DNA of 64,000 nucleotides from Paraconexibacter algicola (GTDB lineage Bacteria; Actinomycetota; Thermoleophilia; Solirubrobacterales; Solirubrobacteraceae). Position 1 is the stretch's first letter, and every line of letters begins with the position of its first letter. Below are positions 33,159 through 41,337 of the stretch, in pieces. Below the pieces are notes generated by a model. The model was not told the DNA's origin and did no database searches. It worked only from the letters and a program-made list of their open reading frames with translations. Made by a program: the position numbers and the translations under genes. The stretch spans positions 496,001 to 560,000 of the forward strand of contig NZ_PYYB01000001.1 of the NCBI RefSeq assembly GCF_003044185.1, in the 5' to 3' direction.

Positions 33159-33204
<46 letters not shown>

Positions 33205-33287
33205 AGCCTAGAGGCCGAACAATGGCCCCCGGAACCAGGGTTTTAGCGGGTATTCTTCGAGTTTCCTCCGATTGCGTCGAGCTGCTT

Positions 33288-33311
33288 GGGGAGAAAAACG
33301 GGGAGAAAAAA
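33288..33311 (+). repeat. Left-arm repeats GGGGAGAAAAA
   Basis: Two adjacent copies of GGGGAGAAAA(A), starting at 33288 and 33300, lie between attL and the integrase gene. Matching GGGAGAAAA/GGGGAGAA copies lie inside the right end. They are probable integrase arm-type binding sites. Confidence 0.5.
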
Positions 33312-33343
33312 CATCCGCCCCATGCGGTAGCGTTCTTGAGGTC

Positions 33344-34552
33344 ATGGCGACCCTCGATCCGACCTTCTCCCGCTCCGTCTCCGGCCACGTGAAGCTGCGC
33401 CGCGGCAAGCTGCGCTCGACCTGGTACGCCAAGTGGCGCGACGCCCAGGGCGTGCAGCGCGAGCGCAAGCTCGGCCTGCTGTGGGACCAAAAGGGCACCG
33501 CCCCCGCCGGCTACCTGACCGAGAAGGACGCCGACGCCCAGCTGCAGGCGATCCTCACCGACGCCCGACGCGGCGCCGTCGAGCAGGTCCGCACCGGCGT
33601 GACCTTCGACGTCGTCGCCGACGACTGGCTCGCGTGGGGCCTGCGCGACCGCGACTGGAAGCCCTCGACCGCCTCCGACAACCGCTCCGTCGTAAACGCC
33701 CACCTGCTGCCAGCCTTTCGCGGCAAGCGCGTCGAGAAGATCACCCCCGAGGACATCGAGCAGTGGCGCGACGAGCTCGTCGACGACCGCGGCGCCAGCC
33801 GCCGCACCGCCAACAAGTGCCTGATCGTGCTCGGCGCGATCCTCGAGCGCGCCGTCAAGGTCCACGGCCTGCTGCGCAACCCCGCCCGCGAGGTCGCCAA
33901 GCTGCGCGTCCGCTACGACCCCAACCAGTACGACTTCTACTCGCCCGAGGAGATCGAGCAGCTCGGCAAGGGCGCGGCCTCAGACCAGGACCGCACCGTC
34001 TTTCTCACCGCCGCGTTCACCGGCCTGCGCATGGGCGAGCTGATCGCGCTGCGCTGGGGCGACGTCGACTTCGACACCGAGGCCCTGCACGTCTACGGCT
34101 CCTACTCCCTCGGAACGCTCACGGCCCCGAAGTCCGGCCTGACCCGGACCGTGCCGATGGCCGAGCAGGTCCGCGACCTGCTCAAGGACCACCAGAAGCG
34201 GGTCCCGCACGCGCGGACCGATCTCGTCTTCCCCGGCGAGCGCGGCGAGTTCCTCGACGGCTCAGCCCTGCGCCGCCGCTACAAGAAGGCCCTGGAGAAC
34301 GCCAAGCTCCGCAAGCTGCGGTTCCACGACCTGCGCCACACGTTCGGCTCGATCGCGATCAACCAGGCCACGATCGTCCAGGTCCAGGCGTGGATGGGCC
34401 ACGCCGACGTGCAGACCACCATGAAGTACATGCACCACCGCAGCCGCGCCGGCGACGCCAAATTGCTGTCGGCTGCATTCCGGCCCAAGAAGAAGGCCAA
34501 ACCACGATCGACCGCTGCCGCACACGCGAAGCCGACCACCGCCTCAGCGTGA
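33344..34552 (+). CDS. Tyrosine recombinase (integrase)
   Basis: A 402-residue phage-type integrase. The N-terminal arm-binding region (about 10-80, RSTWYAKWRDAQG) precedes a SAM-like core-binding domain (about 85-180) and the catalytic domain with R229 (TGLRMGEL), K263, H328-x2-R331 (HDLRHT), H353 (MGHA) and nucleophile Y362. The Lys-rich tail is typical. It catalyses integration into and excision from the tRNA-Arg site. ATG at 33344 is chosen because it starts right before the arm domain. Its stop overlaps the SIR2 start (GTGA), an unusual coupling of an integrase with cargo. Confidence 0.93.
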   Translation: MATLDPTFSRSVSGHVKLRRGKLRSTWYAKWRDAQGVQRERKLGLLWDQKGTAPAGYLTEKDADAQLQAILTDARRGAVEQVRTGVTFDVVADDWLAWGLRDRDWKPSTASDNRSVVNAHLLPAFRGKRVEKITPEDIEQWRDELVDDRGASRRTANKCLIVLGAILERAVKVHGLLRNPAREVAKLRVRYDPNQYDFYSPEEIEQLGKGAASDQDRTVFLTAAFTGLRMGELIALRWGDVDFDTEALHVYGSYSLGTLTAPKSGLTRTVPMAEQVRDLLKDHQKRVPHARTDLVFPGERGEFLDGSALRRRYKKALENAKLRKLRFHDLRHTFGSIAINQATIVQVQAWMGHADVQTTMKYMHHRSRAGDAKLLSAAFRPKKKAKPRSTAAAHAKPTTASA

Positions 34553-36054
34553 GCTTTAGCGCCTTCTCCCAGCCGCCGCTGCGCGACCTCATCAACGACG
34601 CACGGGACACCCCGAAGCTATCTCTGCTGCTCGGTGCCGGCACGTCGATCGAGGCTGGACTGCCAAGCTGGTCGGCGCTGATCGAGCGATTGCTGGTCCG
34701 CGCTGGCACCGCGAGCGGCACCCTCACCACGGCTGACGAGGACGGCACGAATCGCTGGGTCGCCGAGGCGGTTCGCCGTGACGGATATCTCGGAGCGGCG
34801 GCGATTGTTGAGGCGCTCGCCGAGGACGGACAGCTCGGCGAATGGATCCCCCTCGATCTCTATGGCGAACGTAGCCCGTCCGACTTCTTCCCGGGGCCTA
34901 TTGCGCAGCAGCTCCCTCGTCTGGTTGACGCGTTCGGTACTGACTTGGAGATCTTTACGACCAACTACGACGACCTCGCCGAGCAAGCACTCCGTGACGA
35001 TCCCGTCTCGCCCCGTCAAGCAGCGGCGTACGTCGGCGAGCATCTCGGCGTCGGTGCCGACGTCGTGCAGGTCCGTCACCTTCATGGCTATGCCGGGCGT
35101 GACGGGCAGGCCGGTACGCTGGTGCTCAGCGAAGCCGACTACCAGCGCATGCAGCAAGGCGCTTCGTGGCAGGCTAACCAAGTCGGCGCAGCGCTAGCGA
35201 ACAGCATGTTCGTGTTCGTCGGATCGAGCCTCGCCGATCCCAATCTGCTGCGCTACTTGTACGGCGAGCCGCCAGGCAACAAGCCCCCGCGCTACGCGAT
35301 CTTCGTTCGACAGGACACCTACGAACCCGAGGTTCCCGACGGGGTCCGTAAGGCGCGCGAGGCCGCCGTCCGTAGCCGATGGGGCGCCGTCGGCGTCACC
35401 GTCGTGTTCGTCGACCACTACGTCGAAGTCGCGCAGGCACTTTCCGAGATGGCCCGCGCCAAACGGCTCGGCGAGTCTTACGTTCCCCTTCCGGACCGTG
35501 CCGCCACCTGGGTCACCACCGTCAACGACCGCCTCCTCGGTCTCGCCGCCGACGAGACCTTCCAGCGAGCCCAATCGCAGATCGTCACGCGGCTGCGCGA
35601 AGCTCTCCAAGCCGCCGTCGCCGCGGCCGAACGTCTCGAACAGCGGCAGTGGGACGAGACGCTGGCCCTCACGCTGTGGCTCGTCGACGAGCCCGGCGAG
35701 CATCTCATCAACCGCGCCACGACCGACCGGCTGCACATCGACCGCGCCACCATCGAGCCAGTCCATATCGATGAGTACGCGCGCTGGGTTGCCGTCCGCG
35801 CGTACTGCCGAGGCAAGATCCTGGCCGAATCCCGCGAGACCTACGCGTCGCGATGGCATTTCATTCGCGGACTCCCACTCGTCATCGATGACGACGAGTT
35901 CGGTCGTATCCCCGTCGGTTGCGTGACCGTCACCTCCATGAAACGCCGCGACGAGACGATGTTGAACGCGATCGACGACGCCGTCGAAGCCGGCTTCAAC
36001 CGTGCGCTACGCACCGCCATCTACGAACTACTCGCCCAACCTTTCCGCCACTGA
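34549..36054 (+). CDS. SIR2-like domain protein, probable defence NADase
   Basis: A 501-residue protein with an N-terminal SIR2_2-type NAD-binding domain (about 20-290): GAGTS (29-33) with AGLPSW, TTNYD (137-141), H179 in HLHG and GSSLADPN (225-232). The C-terminal 210 residues are helical with acidic patches and match no domain I know. Bacterial SIR2 proteins of this layout (ThsA, DSR, SIR2-APAZ, SIR2-HerA) deplete NAD+ during phage infection. This one stands alone, its trigger presumably in the C-terminus (inference). GTG at 34549 overlaps the integrase stop. The codons are visibly less GC-rich than those of the integrase. Confidence 0.85.
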   Translation: MSFSAFSQPPLRDLINDARDTPKLSLLLGAGTSIEAGLPSWSALIERLLVRAGTASGTLTTADEDGTNRWVAEAVRRDGYLGAAAIVEALAEDGQLGEWIPLDLYGERSPSDFFPGPIAQQLPRLVDAFGTDLEIFTTNYDDLAEQALRDDPVSPRQAAAYVGEHLGVGADVVQVRHLHGYAGRDGQAGTLVLSEADYQRMQQGASWQANQVGAALANSMFVFVGSSLADPNLLRYLYGEPPGNKPPRYAIFVRQDTYEPEVPDGVRKAREAAVRSRWGAVGVTVVFVDHYVEVAQALSEMARAKRLGESYVPLPDRAATWVTTVNDRLLGLAADETFQRAQSQIVTRLREALQAAVAAAERLEQRQWDETLALTLWLVDEPGEHLINRATTDRLHIDRATIEPVHIDEYARWVAVRAYCRGKILAESRETYASRWHFIRGLPLVIDDDEFGRIPVGCVTVTSMKRRDETMLNAIDDAVEAGFNRALRTAIYELLAQPFRH

Positions 36055-36286: not shown

Positions 36287-36820
36287 TCACGATGGTGACG
36301 AGGCGCGGGACCACCACGGCGCCAACGGGTGGGTGTTTGGCGGCCGGTACCGCGCGCGGGTCTCGATGCGCTGAAGCACCGACGCGAGCTGCGCGTCGTC
36401 GGCGTCGACGGCGTCGGCCCACCAGCTCAGGATGTCCGGCGTGGTCACGGTCTCCACGACCGGATCGCCGTCCGCCGCGATCTTTAGGGCGAGTCCGTCA
36501 TCGGTCGCCAGCACCAGACCTCGGTGCCGAGCTGCAGCAAGCGACGCCGCCTCGCCGTCGCCGAGTCGTGGCACCAGACTGAGGAACGTCGTCAGCTCTT
36601 CAGCGCCCGAGAGCGAGACGGCGGTCACCGTGCCCTCGGCGCTGAGCGGCTCCCACTCCAGCGCCTCGCGATCATCTCCCTCGTCATCGACGTAGAGCAC
36701 CTCGGCGGTGACTTGCTCGACGACGATCAGCTCGGAGCCGGCATCGGTCGAGAGCGAGCGGAGGATGCCGCCGGCGAAGACGTTGATCACGACACAGGCG
36801 TCGAGCAGGAGCCGTTCCAT
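36287..36820 (-). CDS. PIN-domain nuclease, last gene of the QueC-like operon
   Basis: A 177-residue PIN-domain protein. Acidic positions expected for metal-dependent RNA cleavage are D7 (LLLDACVV), E40 (VTAEVL), D88/E90 (GDGEAASLAAA) and D107/D108 (LATDDGLALKIA). It starts 11 bases after the ImmA/IrrE gene. PIN proteins paired with XRE-COG2856 (ImmA/IrrE) proteins are a known toxin-antitoxin-like arrangement, so this is the probable toxin or effector. The C-terminal 45 residues (SWWADAVDADDAQLASVLQR) are an extra helix. Confidence 0.8.
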   Translation of the reverse strand: MERLLLDACVVINVFAGGILRSLSTDAGSELIVVEQVTAEVLYVDDEGDDREALEWEPLSAEGTVTAVSLSGAEELTTFLSLVPRLGDGEAASLAAARHRGLVLATDDGLALKIAADGDPVVETVTTPDILSWWADAVDADDAQLASVLQRIETRARYRPPNTHPLAPWWSRASSPS

Positions 36821-36831
36821 CGGGCCTGCGG

Positions 36832-38001
36832 TCAGCGCGCGTCGAGATCGGGGGCGTCGTCCAGGTCGAAGTCGAGCTCTTCGACCAGGCGCCGGGCGGC
36901 GACGCGATCCCGGCGAAGGAATCGCGCGACGCGCTCTTCGGAGATCAGTCCTTTTCGATAGGCCGTGACCGTGAGCAGCACGTAGCGCCGCGGGAGCAGC
37001 ACGGTGTCGGCTTGTCGCGGCTGTAGACCCAGAAGCGCGCGTCCTTCCTCGGGCTTGAGGCCACGTCTGACGAGCTGGTCCCAGGCGCCTGACTTGATCA
37101 GCTTGAGGTCCTCCAGCCGACGGGCCATCGCCTCGGCCGACACGTGCCAGAAGTCCGCCTGGCCGAGCAGCAGCGCGGGCGTCACGCGGCCGCCCGATGC
37201 GGTCTTGGCAGCTTCAAACCGACGCGTGACGCCGCCGGCCGGCATCAACAGCCGTTGCGCGAACGCGTCGGCAAAGCGCTCAGCCGCCGGTACGCGCCGG
37301 TAGCCGGCGATGACGACCGTGATCTCCGCGCGATCGCGCCGCGTCAGGAAGTGCGCGAACTCATGCGCCAGCGAGAATCGCTGGCGCTCCCAACGGTGGC
37401 GACTGTTCATCGCCACGCACGCGCCGAGTTGCTCGTCATACGCGAACAAGCCGCCGAATCGGGACGGCAGCGGGACGGAGAACACGCGAAGCCCAACGTC
37501 GTTCTCGAGCAGCTCGCGCAGATGCGGTAGCGGTCCGTCACCAAGATGCAGGCGTCCCCGCTCCTCGGTAGCCAGCCGCTCGGCGCCGGCGACCGGGTCG
37601 GTGGGCACGGTTTGCGGGCTCGGGAAGCTCGTAGGAAGCGGAGCGTCCAGCAGGCGCTCAAGTTCGACGTAGTCTTCGGCGAGTTTCTGAAGCGCGAGCG
37701 TCGCGTGCCGAAGGTCGTCCTCCTCGGGCATCCTTCCCGCCGACTCGCGGAACTGAGCAGCGAGCTCACGGGGTGGTTCGCTGGGTCGAAGGAGCTCGTC
37801 CAGCCGTTGCCCGTACAGACCAGCCAGAGCGACCATCTCCTCGGGCTTGAGCCGGCGCTCGCCGCTCTCCAACGCGACCAGCGAGGTTCGCGCCATGCCC
37901 ATCTGCTCAGCCACCTGCGCCTGGGTGAGCCCGCGATCTTGGCGAGCGCGCCGCAGCCGCTCAAGAAGCCAGCTGTACTGACCTCGTTCGGACGTGCTCA
38001 C
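36832..38001 (-). CDS. XRE HTH-ImmA/IrrE metallopeptidase
   Basis: A 389-residue two-part regulator. The Cro/C1-type HTH is at about 12-68 (RGLTQAQVAEQMGMARTSLV); the COG2856 zinc peptidase domain follows with HEFAH (213-217) and the downstream Glu in ERFADAFAQRLLMP (241-254). The C-terminal 90 residues hold a second helical region. Such proteins bind their own promoter and cleave a repressor or antitoxin on a stress signal (known from ImmA of ICEBs1 and IrrE/DdrO). Its ATG overlaps the QueC-like stop (ATGA) and it precedes the PIN gene, so it likely controls the toxin. Confidence 0.88.
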   Translation of the reverse strand: MSTSERGQYSWLLERLRRARQDRGLTQAQVAEQMGMARTSLVALESGERRLKPEEMVALAGLYGQRLDELLRPSEPPRELAAQFRESAGRMPEEDDLRHATLALQKLAEDYVELERLLDAPLPTSFPSPQTVPTDPVAGAERLATEERGRLHLGDGPLPHLRELLENDVGLRVFSVPLPSRFGGLFAYDEQLGACVAMNSRHRWERQRFSLAHEFAHFLTRRDRAEITVVIAGYRRVPAAERFADAFAQRLLMPAGGVTRRFEAAKTASGGRVTPALLLGQADFWHVSAEAMARRLEDLKLIKSGAWDQLVRRGLKPEEGRALLGLQPRQADTVLLPRRYVLLTVTAYRKGLISEERVARFLRRDRVAARRLVEELDFDLDDAPDLDAR

Positions 38002-39401
38002 GCCGCGACTCCGGTCCGCTCGCCCTGGGGCAGGTAGCGCACCGTCAGAGGGTGCTCAAACCTGGCCCACTCTTCGACGTAGGTCGTCAGGAGTCCTTGG
38101 GTCAGGCCGACCGGGTCGTGGTAGCCCTGAGCGAGCAGTGCATCGTGGATGCGGCGCAGGTCCGGGAACGCTCGCACGAGCGCGTCGACCGGCGTGGGCT
38201 CCCGTAGGGCCCGATCCATCTGCGCGGCCTGGTTGAGCATGTAGTGCAGCCGAAGGGCGCGCTTGTCCGACCCGGCGGCGACCTCGCGGACGTCGGTGCG
38301 ATAGAGGCTGGCCTCGGCATCGTCCTCGTCGGCCAAGCCGCCGGCGCGCAGCGCTTGGCGCCGCAGCAGACACGACGTGCAGGTTCCACATAGGTGGACC
38401 TTCGAGGCGCGATGCGTCAGACCCGTATCGCACGACACCGTGGTGCGGATGCCATTCCGCACCACGCCCTGGAGGAGAGCGCACATCTGTGCCTTGGTCT
38501 TCGTGAACGACGGGTTGACGATGTCGAATGCATCCTCGAGCACGAGGCTCATCAGGCCACTTGCCTTGACCAGGGTTTCGGGGCGCATCGCACGGGTGTT
38601 GTGGCTTCCGTACTGCGCCTCGGTGAGTGGCAAGTTCATCGCCCCGACGCCGTTCTCGTAGACGCGCAGCTCGCGCCCGCCGGCGGTCGCGGCGCTCACG
38701 GCGCCGAGCACCAAGAACACCAGCCCCCTAGTGCGTTGGCTGGCCTCCGGTGCATCGCGGCGTCCTGCCAGGCGAGCGATCGCCTCCCCGCGCAAAGCCA
38801 CCGGGACCTGGAGCGCGCGGATCGAAGCAGGCGAGCTGGCCTTCAGCGCGGCGAGGGTCCGCTGCTGCATCGCGCCCATCGGCTTGCTCGTCGTGGCCGA
38901 GACGAGCACCAGCTCTCGATCCGCCTCAGCCGCGTCTGAGGCGGCCCCGGCGTAGGAGTCAAGGCCTCCGCTGTAGAGGCCGAAGCGCGCGTTGGGAATC
39001 GGGTCCATCCCGAAGAGCGGGTCTTGACTCTCTGCGAAACGGTGTTGCCGACGCCCACCGAGAAACTCGAAACCCCAGACGTCGTCGGTCAGCCACTCGA
39101 GCAGGTCGCGGAGCGCCTCGGCTACGTCGGCTTGGCGCCAGAACGCCTCGTCGCGCACGGCGATACGCACCGGCAGTTCCCGGCTCCAGTCCTCGCTGCC
39201 GCGACTTCCGGGCGGTCGACGCGGGCGCAGCCGGTCGGTGACATACGCGGACATCGCGATGTCGAGCAGGTCCGACAGGCGCGGCGACAGTGCCCGACCC
39301 AGGCCGAATGCGATCTGCTGATCGTCGAGCCGGAATCCCGACTCCCAATCCACGCGGGGGCCGTCCCCGCCGTCAAAGTTCAGAGGTTCGTAGCGCTGCA
39401 T
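37998..39401 (-). CDS. QueC-like PP-loop protein of a defence-type operon
   Basis: A 467-residue protein, about twice the size of housekeeping QueC. A novel N-terminal region (1-135) precedes a PP-loop ATPase domain with SGGLDS (144-149), the helix TRGLVFLVLGAVSA, the motif ENGVGAMNLPLT (249-260) and four zinc cysteines C324, C338, C341, C344 (CGTCTSC). QueC makes preQ0; the long QueC-like proteins QatC and Cap9 belong to phage-defence systems, and Cap9 links a deazaguanine to a partner protein. No queD, queE or folE is nearby, so a queuosine role is unlikely. Its start shares one base with the upstream stop (TGATG). Confidence 0.85.
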   Translation of the reverse strand: MQRYEPLNFDGGDGPRVDWESGFRLDDQQIAFGLGRALSPRLSDLLDIAMSAYVTDRLRPRRPPGSRGSEDWSRELPVRIAVRDEAFWRQADVAEALRDLLEWLTDDVWGFEFLGGRRQHRFAESQDPLFGMDPIPNARFGLYSGGLDSYAGAASDAAEADRELVLVSATTSKPMGAMQQRTLAALKASSPASIRALQVPVALRGEAIARLAGRRDAPEASQRTRGLVFLVLGAVSAATAGGRELRVYENGVGAMNLPLTEAQYGSHNTRAMRPETLVKASGLMSLVLEDAFDIVNPSFTKTKAQMCALLQGVVRNGIRTTVSCDTGLTHRASKVHLCGTCTSCLLRRQALRAGGLADEDDAEASLYRTDVREVAAGSDKRALRLHYMLNQAAQMDRALREPTPVDALVRAFPDLRRIHDALLAQGYHDPVGLTQGLLTTYVEEWARFEHPLTVRYLPQGERTGVAA

Positions 39402-40042
39402 CAGCTCAGGTCCTCGTAGAGCAGGCTTTGCGTATCACGGGGGCGGATCTTGCGATCGGGGGCACGCAACCCGTCGCCGTCGGGCTTCCGCAGCAGACGG
39501 TCTGCGAGCTCGTCCAGCGACGCGTGCGCGTTGGCGGCGGCCTCGAAGCGCCTGGCCTCGTCGAAGTCTCCGTACTGCTCCAGCAGCAGGTCACGCCCGC
39601 GGCCCCACATGCGCTCATCGACCCACCGCGACAGCCCACCCTCGGTGATCTGCCGACATGCCTCTCCGTCGCTCATCGCAGCAAGTCCATCGCGGTCGCG
39701 GGCCAGCAAGTGCTCGGCCTCCCGTGCCATCGTCTGCGATAGGACGTTGCGGCCGTTGATGTCCAGAAACCGTCGCTGGGCCTGCTCCCACGCCGGCAGG
39801 TCGCCAAACACCGCGACGTATCGCGCGGCGTACGCCAGCTGCTCCAGCTCCGGGCAGCCGCCGGCGTCCCGCAGTGCCGCTGCGGTCGCTGCGCGGATCT
39901 CGTCGCCGACCTCGGCCGCCGACGCCCGGTCGAGAGCGGCCTGGAAGGGGCGGCGCCAGTGGCGAGGCAAGAGTCGGGGAACAAGGTCGTTGTCCGGCAC
40001 GATCGGGAACAGTGCCAGCACCATCGGACAGAATGAGATCAC
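39401..40042 (-). CDS. Unknown helical protein, first gene of the QueC-like operon
   Basis: A 213-codon gene with no domain I recognise. It is largely alpha-helical with conserved-looking patches: RHWRRPFQAALDRAS, RRFLDINGRNVLSQTMAREA and WVDERMWGRGRDLL. No signal or membrane helix beyond a mildly hydrophobic N-terminus. GTG at 40042 gives the full frame; ATG at 40024 is a good alternative since neither has a ribosome site. The stop overlaps the QueC-like start by one base (TGATG), so the proteins are made together. By analogy with CD-NTase/Cap9 and QatB/QatC, it may be the substrate or partner of the QueC-like enzyme (inference). Confidence 0.7.
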   Translation of the reverse strand: MISFCPMVLALFPIVPDNDLVPRLLPRHWRRPFQAALDRASAAEVGDEIRAATAAALRDAGGCPELEQLAYAARYVAVFGDLPAWEQAQRRFLDINGRNVLSQTMAREAEHLLARDRDGLAAMSDGEACRQITEGGLSRWVDERMWGRGRDLLLEQYGDFDEARRFEAAANAHASLDELADRLLRKPDGDGLRAPDRKIRPRDTQSLLYEDLS

Positions 40043-40163
40043 AAGACACGTTTTCGCGGCTCCATGTCAGGTTTCCTCTTCGCCACAGCCCACTAGTCGG
40101 CGACCGTGCGCGGGCCAGTTTGCTGCCCATAAGGGGTTCTGGATGCGCGCGTATCCTTGACGT

Positions 40164-40826
40164 ATGGCCCACGGTCCGGTGACGCTATTTGACGCCTTGG
40201 TCTCGATGGAGGTCGGTTCGCGGTTCGAGTCCCTTGGCGATTCCGAGCTGGATCTCCTGGTCCGGTACCACGAGGTCTGCTGCGGGCTGGGATCGTCGAC
40301 CTTTTTCTCCCAGCCAATCCGGTTCTCGGTGAAGGCCGCGCCAGAGGAGAGCTACGAGCGGCTTGACCATGCCGGTCGCGACCCGCTGCGTTCGATGACC
40401 ATGGACTTCCGCCAACTCTGGATGAAGAAGGAGCCTGCACGCTTCCACGCCATCCTCGGGCTACTACGCCAGCGGGTCGCCTCGCAAACAACCCTCGCCG
40501 ACAGCACCAAAGCGATCCTCGACCTCCTCGGACGTCGCCACCGCGACGAGCGCAACGTCGGCCTGATGAGACACGTCTGGGCCGACGACCCGATGGGGCC
40601 GCCTATCCGTGAGTTCACCGCCGAGCAGGTCATCAACGACTGGCTCTACGGAGGCGCGTTCCACTTCGATGCTGATGCCGCGAGTCGGGTCGCGGCCTGG
40701 TCGCCGGTCGCGTACGAGTGGTCGCTCGTCAAAGCAATCAAGGGGATCGCCGTCGTGTGCTGGGAGCTCGACGTCCTCGTCGGCGCGATCGTGGAAGATC
40801 AGCGACCGACCGCTTTGGCTGCCTGA
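40164..40826 (+). CDS. Hypothetical protein divergent from the QueC-like operon
   Basis: A soluble 220-residue protein of unknown family, helical, with motifs DLLVRYHEVCCGLGSSTFF and PIREFTAEQVINDWLYGGAF. Its ATG is 6 bases after a TATCCT box, a leaderless arrangement. It shares a 121-base intergenic region with the divergent operon. Codon use is A/T-richer than the chromosome. The final in-frame stop is followed directly, in the same frame, by a hydrolase remnant. It may be an additional defence or regulatory component of the island. Confidence 0.6.
   Translation: MAHGPVTLFDALVSMEVGSRFESLGDSELDLLVRYHEVCCGLGSSTFFSQPIRFSVKAAPEESYERLDHAGRDPLRSMTMDFRQLWMKKEPARFHAILGLLRQRVASQTTLADSTKAILDLLGRRHRDERNVGLMRHVWADDPMGPPIREFTAEQVINDWLYGGAFHFDADAASRVAAWSPVAYEWSLVKAIKGIAVVCWELDVLVGAIVEDQRPTALAA

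Positions 40827-41261: not shown

Positions 41262-41337
<76 letters not shown>

Follow-up and report, generated by a model that had tools for sequence, protein, structure and literature searches.

A four-gene operon joining a QatC-family enzyme to an XRE-ImmA/PIN pair: a candidate antiviral variant of the Qat kind

Four consecutive minus-strand open reading frames (ORFs) occupy positions 36287-40042 of the window, the whole 64,000-nucleotide stretch of Paraconexibacter algicola DNA analysed here, and raise the question of whether they form a defence system of their own or belong to a known kind. A sequence-only reading had described them as a candidate new system comprising a new helical protein, a QueC-like enzyme, an XRE-ImmA/IrrE regulator and a PIN nuclease, matching neither Qat nor the cyclic-oligonucleotide-based antiphage signalling system (CBASS). 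The same four genes stand in the same order in 24 loci, and the cassette, which probably serves antiviral defence, appears to be a variant of the Qat kind. All four genes are present at 39401-40042, 37998-39401, 36832-38001 and 36287-36820, and Pfam, NCBIfam and PADLOC matches together with motifs bear out the families named for them. Their junctions are tight. The partner and QueC genes have one base in common (TGATG), the QueC and XRE genes overlap by four bases, and 11 bases separate the XRE and PIN genes, all as noted earlier apart from the letters of the four-base overlap, which are GTGA and not ATGA.

The 24 loci examined comprise the window, a second genus of the Solirubrobacteraceae, two alphaproteobacterial genomes and 20 alphaproteobacterial plasmids, with protein identities of 24-50% where pairwise matches are significant; the carriers are thus soil actinobacteria, and rhizobia and related bacteria that hold it on plasmids. 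In the second genus (genome G186, loci L004/L026), the four genes occur in order at 25, 41, 49 and 39% identity. Plasmids were searched by tblastn with the ImmA protein and then with an alphaproteobacterial QueC, and the operons found belong to Rhizobiaceae, Methylocystaceae, Boseaceae, Stappiaceae, Phyllobacteriaceae, Sphingomonadaceae and Acetobacteraceae. A search of plasmids with QueC alone gave 25 records, and ImmA adjoins QueC in every one; 20 of these were fetched and hold all four genes in order (20/20), and the other five were judged by coordinates, with ImmA beside QueC. Among 385 alphaproteobacterial genomes there are two strong QueC matches (G883, G886), both with all four genes. 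Within 232 genomes of the window's order, this QueC subfamily occurs only in the window genome and G186, and seven other genomes of the window's genus have no QatC-family match. Profiles built without actinobacterial sequences recover the QueC (5.6e-37), ImmA (2.1e-83) and PIN (2.1e-17) proteins of the window and miss the partner (E 0.4). Viral contigs, scanned with the QueC proteins and with a DNA pattern of the partner, gave no match, phage records held no QueC relative, and a scan of genome contigs returned only the G186 contig and one distant locus of the MGH-partner type described below. The operon is rare yet widespread, a conserved unit borne on islands and plasmids. Confinement to one genome, which the sequence-only reading had named as a refutation, does not hold.

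The second gene (37998..39401, minus strand, 467 amino acids) encodes what profiles and motifs identify as a QatC-family member, not a QatC equivalog. It matches the NCBIfam QatC model at E 7.9e-49 with 166.6 bits, short of the equivalog cut-off of 280 bits, and the PADLOC QatC model at 2.5e-42. A two-sequence QueC profile also finds the solved QatC chains 9vlk (4.2e-28) and 9zee (5e-27), and the Pfam family PF06508 is matched at E 3.4e-5. The QatC motif set given in PMC13329287 includes D(x)4R..WxR, DxWxxxF, RxRxxxF, ExG, P(x)4TK and four cysteines with CGxCxxCxxRR, and it is invariant or nearly so across alignments of the operon's QueC proteins. In the window protein these motifs are represented by the intact SGGLDS loop (144-149), D56, R223/R225/F229, E249/G251, P297/T302/K303 and Cys324/338/341/344. 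The ATP loop reads SGGLDS in the window and G186 and S[DNEK]GxDS in alphaproteobacterial members, and RP stands in place of the HP motif in the window, with HP, NP or FP elsewhere. Thr278/Thr280 of the QatC substrate site are unconserved in a sequence-only alignment (T-R-A in the window, S-R-S in G186, mostly Y-R-N in alphaproteobacteria). Assignment to housekeeping QueC was rejected: the QatC models score far better, and TGT is the one queuosine gene detected in the host. A split QueC gene in Mesorhizobium huakuii (L086:4462-5848) is probably a broken copy or a sequencing error.

The statement that the unit is neither Qat nor CBASS holds for the genes it lacks: QatA and QatD have no match in any of the 24 loci, and Pfam finds no nucleotidyltransferase (CD-NTase) match among the seven island proteins. 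Its separation from Qat fails, because the QueC-like protein is QatC-family and the layout of a partner-QatC core is held in common, which relates the operon to Qat instead of setting it apart.

Four layouts occur among the QatC-family loci fetched, namely partner-QueC-ImmA-PIN, qatABCD, a 365-aa/202-aa type and an MGH-partner type. In a tree of 47 QatC-family (QueC) proteins, layout follows the branching exactly, with three layout changes, the minimum; none of 200 label shuffles came as low. A branch supported at 80/92 separates the partner-QueC-ImmA-PIN layout from the rest, against 96/96 for canonical qatABCD, and a QatA match is present in 16/16 loci classed as canonical. The 365-aa/202-aa type (L018, L042, L048) has an undescribed-looking arrangement of a ~365-aa gene, a QatB-like (MGTS) gene, QatC and a ~202-aa gene, without QatA or QatD. 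Proteins of ~620 aa with a C-terminal extension (L017, L027, L057, L079, L080) occupy a separate starred branch, and in L017 and L027 an MGH-starting partner precedes them. According to PMC13329287, qatA and qatD adjoin only about a third of cluster-2 QueC genes, which leaves room for other layouts; the sections of it covered here do not describe partner-QueC-ImmA-PIN. A limited set of open-licence papers likewise holds no published description of the four-gene operon, which is not proof of absence.

The first gene lies in the QatB position. Its ORF from the first GTG spans 39401-40042 (213 aa), which was the 5' end read earlier, but homologues point to GTG 40000 (MPDNDLVPRLLPRHW...), 14 codons further in. 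The gene is accordingly placed at 39401..40000 on the minus strand, in a frame open to 40042. This start is suggested by the homologues and is not certain, because CTGACATGGAG lies ~60 bp upstream of GTG 40000, compared with ~17 bp in most alphaproteobacterial relatives. The distant operator is also why a frameshift was considered, which may affect the 5' end of the one sequence at hand. From GTG 40000, the N-terminus is MPDND with W at residue 15. An aromatic occupies residue 15 in 24/24 loci, and the N-terminus is M-x-D-G in 23 of them, the window having M-P-D-N. The consensus is MxDGP, as opposed to the MGTS tail of QatB with its essential Gly2; in qatABCD that tail is required, and G2D abolishes defence (PMC13279940). 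Tail length and the aromatic are thus common to the partner and QatB and the glycine is not, given the MxDG start. QatB-like partners of two other layouts have Trp 15 and begin with MG.

Kinship among the partners themselves is harder to trace. The window protein has no family match in Pfam, NCBIfam, PADLOC or PHROGs, and HMMER links actinobacterial and alphaproteobacterial partners weakly, at E 0.36-0.4. Profile-profile comparison gives P 2.6e-4 and a score of 32, where 40 shuffles reached no more than 21, in an alignment collinear from residue 1. Score, collinearity and gene position together speak for a relation between them. The protein had been called helical, and its AlphaFold2 (AF2) model is indeed all-helical, at a low-confidence mean predicted local distance difference test (pLDDT) of just 61.5. 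Profile searches of the Protein Data Bank with the partner and the PIN protein returned chance-like matches or none. Most alphaproteobacterial partners (e.g. L053:2999-3577) share a conserved C-terminal tail of the D[DEQ]G[VP] type. In Sinorhizobium fredii (L058:2504-3080), the partner falls into two ORFs, probably as a broken copy or through a sequencing error.

The third gene (36832..38001, minus strand, 389 aa) encodes an XRE-type helix-turn-helix (HTH) fused to an ImmA/IrrE (M78) metalloprotease, with Pfam matches to M78 (1.6e-14) and HTH_3 (3.9e-12). Its best PADLOC match is RmrA (6.1e-29), followed by CapP (1.6e-16) and CapH (1.3e-7). The ImmA motif HEFAH is intact in the window, and HExxH is intact in 24/24 loci. 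The fourth gene (36287..36820, minus strand, 177 aa) encodes a PIN-type protein in which D7, E40, D88, E90 and D107 are invariant across 10 sequences. Pfam PIN matches 4/10 family members (best 0.0019) and scores the window protein at E 0.084, with 13.9 bits against a gathering cut-off of 23.6. The PADLOC candidate family PDC-S70 matches 9/10 relatives (best 2.3e-12), and the relative in L085 is annotated as a PIN domain-containing protein; the AF2 model (pLDDT 40) is too low to use. The pairing of XRE-ImmA/IrrE with PIN, cited as known in the sequence-only reading, agrees with toxin-antitoxin networks in which ImmA antitoxins are paired with PIN domains, and phage defence is known for a related RosmerTA system (PMC10440598). 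The pair behaves as a portable module: L066 has XRE-ImmA beside a PIN-family gene but no QueC, and in L044 (1408-2766, minus strand) a PIN and ImmA pair divergently adjoins a canonical qatABCD operon.

A shared upstream element accompanies these genes. TGTCA/TGACA half-sites number 65 upstream of the 24 operons versus 5.3 in shuffles (maximum 13), a count over related sequences and not over 24 independent trials. The typical pattern consists of TTGACATTGTCAG and CTGACAT around a promoter, beside the Shine-Dalgarno (SD) sequence. In the window, a half-site with an SD-like sequence (CTGACATGGAG, 40060..40070, minus strand) matches the element upstream of alphaproteobacterial operons. The XRE protein encoded in the operon itself probably binds these sites.

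We favour, at slightly below an even chance, a reading in which a QatBC-like core and a RosmerTA-like XRE-ImmA/PIN control module are coupled in one operon under one operator. XRE-ImmA would bind TGTCAG/CTGACA sites before the operon, hold expression low and keep the PIN protein inactive. The partner's N-terminal tail, with its MxDG start and residue-15 aromatic, would enter the active site of the QatC-type enzyme, like the modelled QatB tail, and be modified there with the use of ATP. Infection, through damage, single-stranded DNA (ssDNA) or a phage product and perhaps sensed via the partner, would then activate the ImmA protease or free the PIN protein, which would cut RNA and stop growth. 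Analogy with QatBC and Cap9 makes modification of the partner plausible, with the QatB Gly2 acceptor missing. Partner modification and its chemistry, sensing, gating by ImmA, RNA cleavage and phage defence are all predicted functions. A narrower proposal, in which a QatC-type ligase marks the MxDG N-terminus with a substrate other than 7-carboxy-7-deazaguanine (CDG) and the marked complex controls the ImmA protease that releases the PIN RNase, is doubtful at present. If true, covalent marking of a protein would be linked without intermediary to a toxin-antitoxin switch.

The chief rival to coupling is co-location, since XRE-ImmA and PIN also occur without QueC and beside Qat: the QatBC-like core and the RosmerTA-like pair could be two independent modules, the pair stabilising or guarding the cassette with no signalling between them. 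ImmA-PIN combinations are known toxin-antitoxin pairs, and most relatives were found on plasmids, both of which suit such independence. Set against this, the four-gene order is fixed across two phyla at 24-50% identity, the overlaps are tight, and the QueC subclade coincides with the architecture, a combination that indicates co-inheritance and suggests coupling. We regard independence as possible, with a probability well short of even. A transcriptional role alone for XRE-ImmA is unlikely, and less probable than mere co-location. In that case, it would act as a CapHP-like damage-responsive switch, with two effectors, the PIN protein and the complex of partner and QueC. ssDNA switches on the protease CapP, which cuts the CapH repressor, and the two control immune operons (PMC13373217); the CapP and CapH matches and the half-sites upstream of the first gene are in keeping with this. 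Yet HTH and protease are fused here and separate in CapH+CapP, the antitoxin RmrA gives the best match, and the regulator directly precedes PIN as in antitoxin-toxin pairs.

The enzyme might also make or alter a 7-deazaguanine small molecule or a nucleic-acid base instead of acting as a protein-modifying ligase. The PF06508 match and the Tyr aligned with QatC Thr278 in most alphaproteobacterial members, as in Cap9/QueC, point that way. The long QatC-type extensions and the failure of E. coli QatC to restore queuosine (PMC13329287) speak against it, as does the gene content of the hosts. PTPS/QueD, QueE and canonical QueC have no match in three of the four operon hosts tested (G000, G186, G886), where TGT is present and no de novo CDG would be made; a B. 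subtilis-type model served for QueE, and some of the genomes may not be complete. The fourth, G883, has matches to PTPS/QueD, QueE, canonical QueC and TGT. Canonical qatABCD hosts show a similar pattern: of 13 (G076, G080, G113, G157, G231, G288, G370, G498, G739, G451, G881, G851 and G1038), nine lack a PTPS/QueD match, one of these being a single-contig genome rated 100% complete. Failure to detect QueD, QueE and canonical QueC in a host counts against CDG as the substrate. If CDG is not imported, such hosts should use another substrate. CDG is unlikely to be universal among QatC enzymes. Small-molecule or base chemistry is the least probable reading by a wide margin.

Several observations weigh against the coupled, defensive reading itself. 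Coupling and defence are both read from genes and sequences, and the PIN assignment from a motif and weak profile matches. The change from SGGxDS to S[DNEK]GxDS may weaken ATP use in alphaproteobacterial members. The partner lacks the essential Gly2 of QatB, and its profiles do not match those of QatB significantly (P 0.006-0.5, the best, 0.006, being with an MGH-type partner). Foldseek and VIA-align searches with the partner's low-confidence model gave no meaningful match, and the absence of QatB from their lists proves nothing. Finally, the start codon of the window partner is ambiguous, and the window holds one half-site only (40070-40060), at an unusual distance from the homology-supported start.

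The operon lies on an 8.1-kb tRNA-Arg island, in line with the integrated island reported from the sequence. A perfect 46-bp direct repeat and the tRNA-Arg gene bound it: the left copy (33159..33204) repeats the 3' end of the tRNA and is identical to the right copy (41262..41307), inside tRNA-Arg 41263-41337 on the minus strand. A tyrosine integrase (longest ORF 33272..34552, plus strand; PF00589, E 4.7e-28) adjoins the repeat, and G+C is 67.6% within the island versus 73-75% outside. The same island encodes a SIR2-domain protein (34543-36054, plus strand; SIR2_2, 4.5e-16) that is 42% identical over 500 aa to the SIR2 protein of L042 (2317-3924), which adjoins a different QatC-family operon. 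A 220-aa ORF (40164-40826, plus strand), also within the island and divergent from the operon, has no family match.

Among known systems, the closest is qatABCD, which likewise places a small, near-overlapping partner gene before a QatC-family enzyme with the same motifs and keeps an aromatic near partner residue 15. The operon differs in lacking QatA and QatD, in its MxDGP partner, in XRE-ImmA and PIN, and in its separate QatC branch. Its enzyme belongs to the QatC family by motifs, and the operon appears to be a variant of the Qat kind, departing from qatABCD in QatA, QatD and the MGTS tail. The MGH-partner and 365-aa/202-aa layouts also combine a QatC-family enzyme and a small partner without QatA or QatD, but they sit on separate QatC branches, keep the N-terminal Gly in the partners read, and have no ImmA or PIN. 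RosmerTA (RmrA/RmrT) resembles the second half of the operon, an HTH-ImmA/IrrE protein followed by a toxin-like gene, whereas here a QatBC-like pair stands alongside in 24/24 loci and the PIN protein is unmatched to the RosmerTA toxin model in PADLOC. Type IV CBASS (Cap9/Cap10/CD-NTase) also joins a QueC-family enzyme to a protein partner, with a minimal Cap9 in place of the long, QatC-like QueC and with a CD-NTase, of which none was found here. CapH+CapP, which control immune operons, likewise combine an HTH with an ImmA-type protease, but as two proteins; here one fused protein, third in the operon, presumably controls its own operon. In Qat itself, QatB-QatC alone defends, the QatB tail and the QatC ATP site are essential, and QatC chemistry and phage restriction by QatBC are stated as open questions (PMC13279940). 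For these questions, the operon offers a natural comparison: it keeps the QatC core, replaces QatA and QatD with what appears to be a protease-regulated toxin, and swaps a supposedly essential N-terminal glycine for a different conserved motif.
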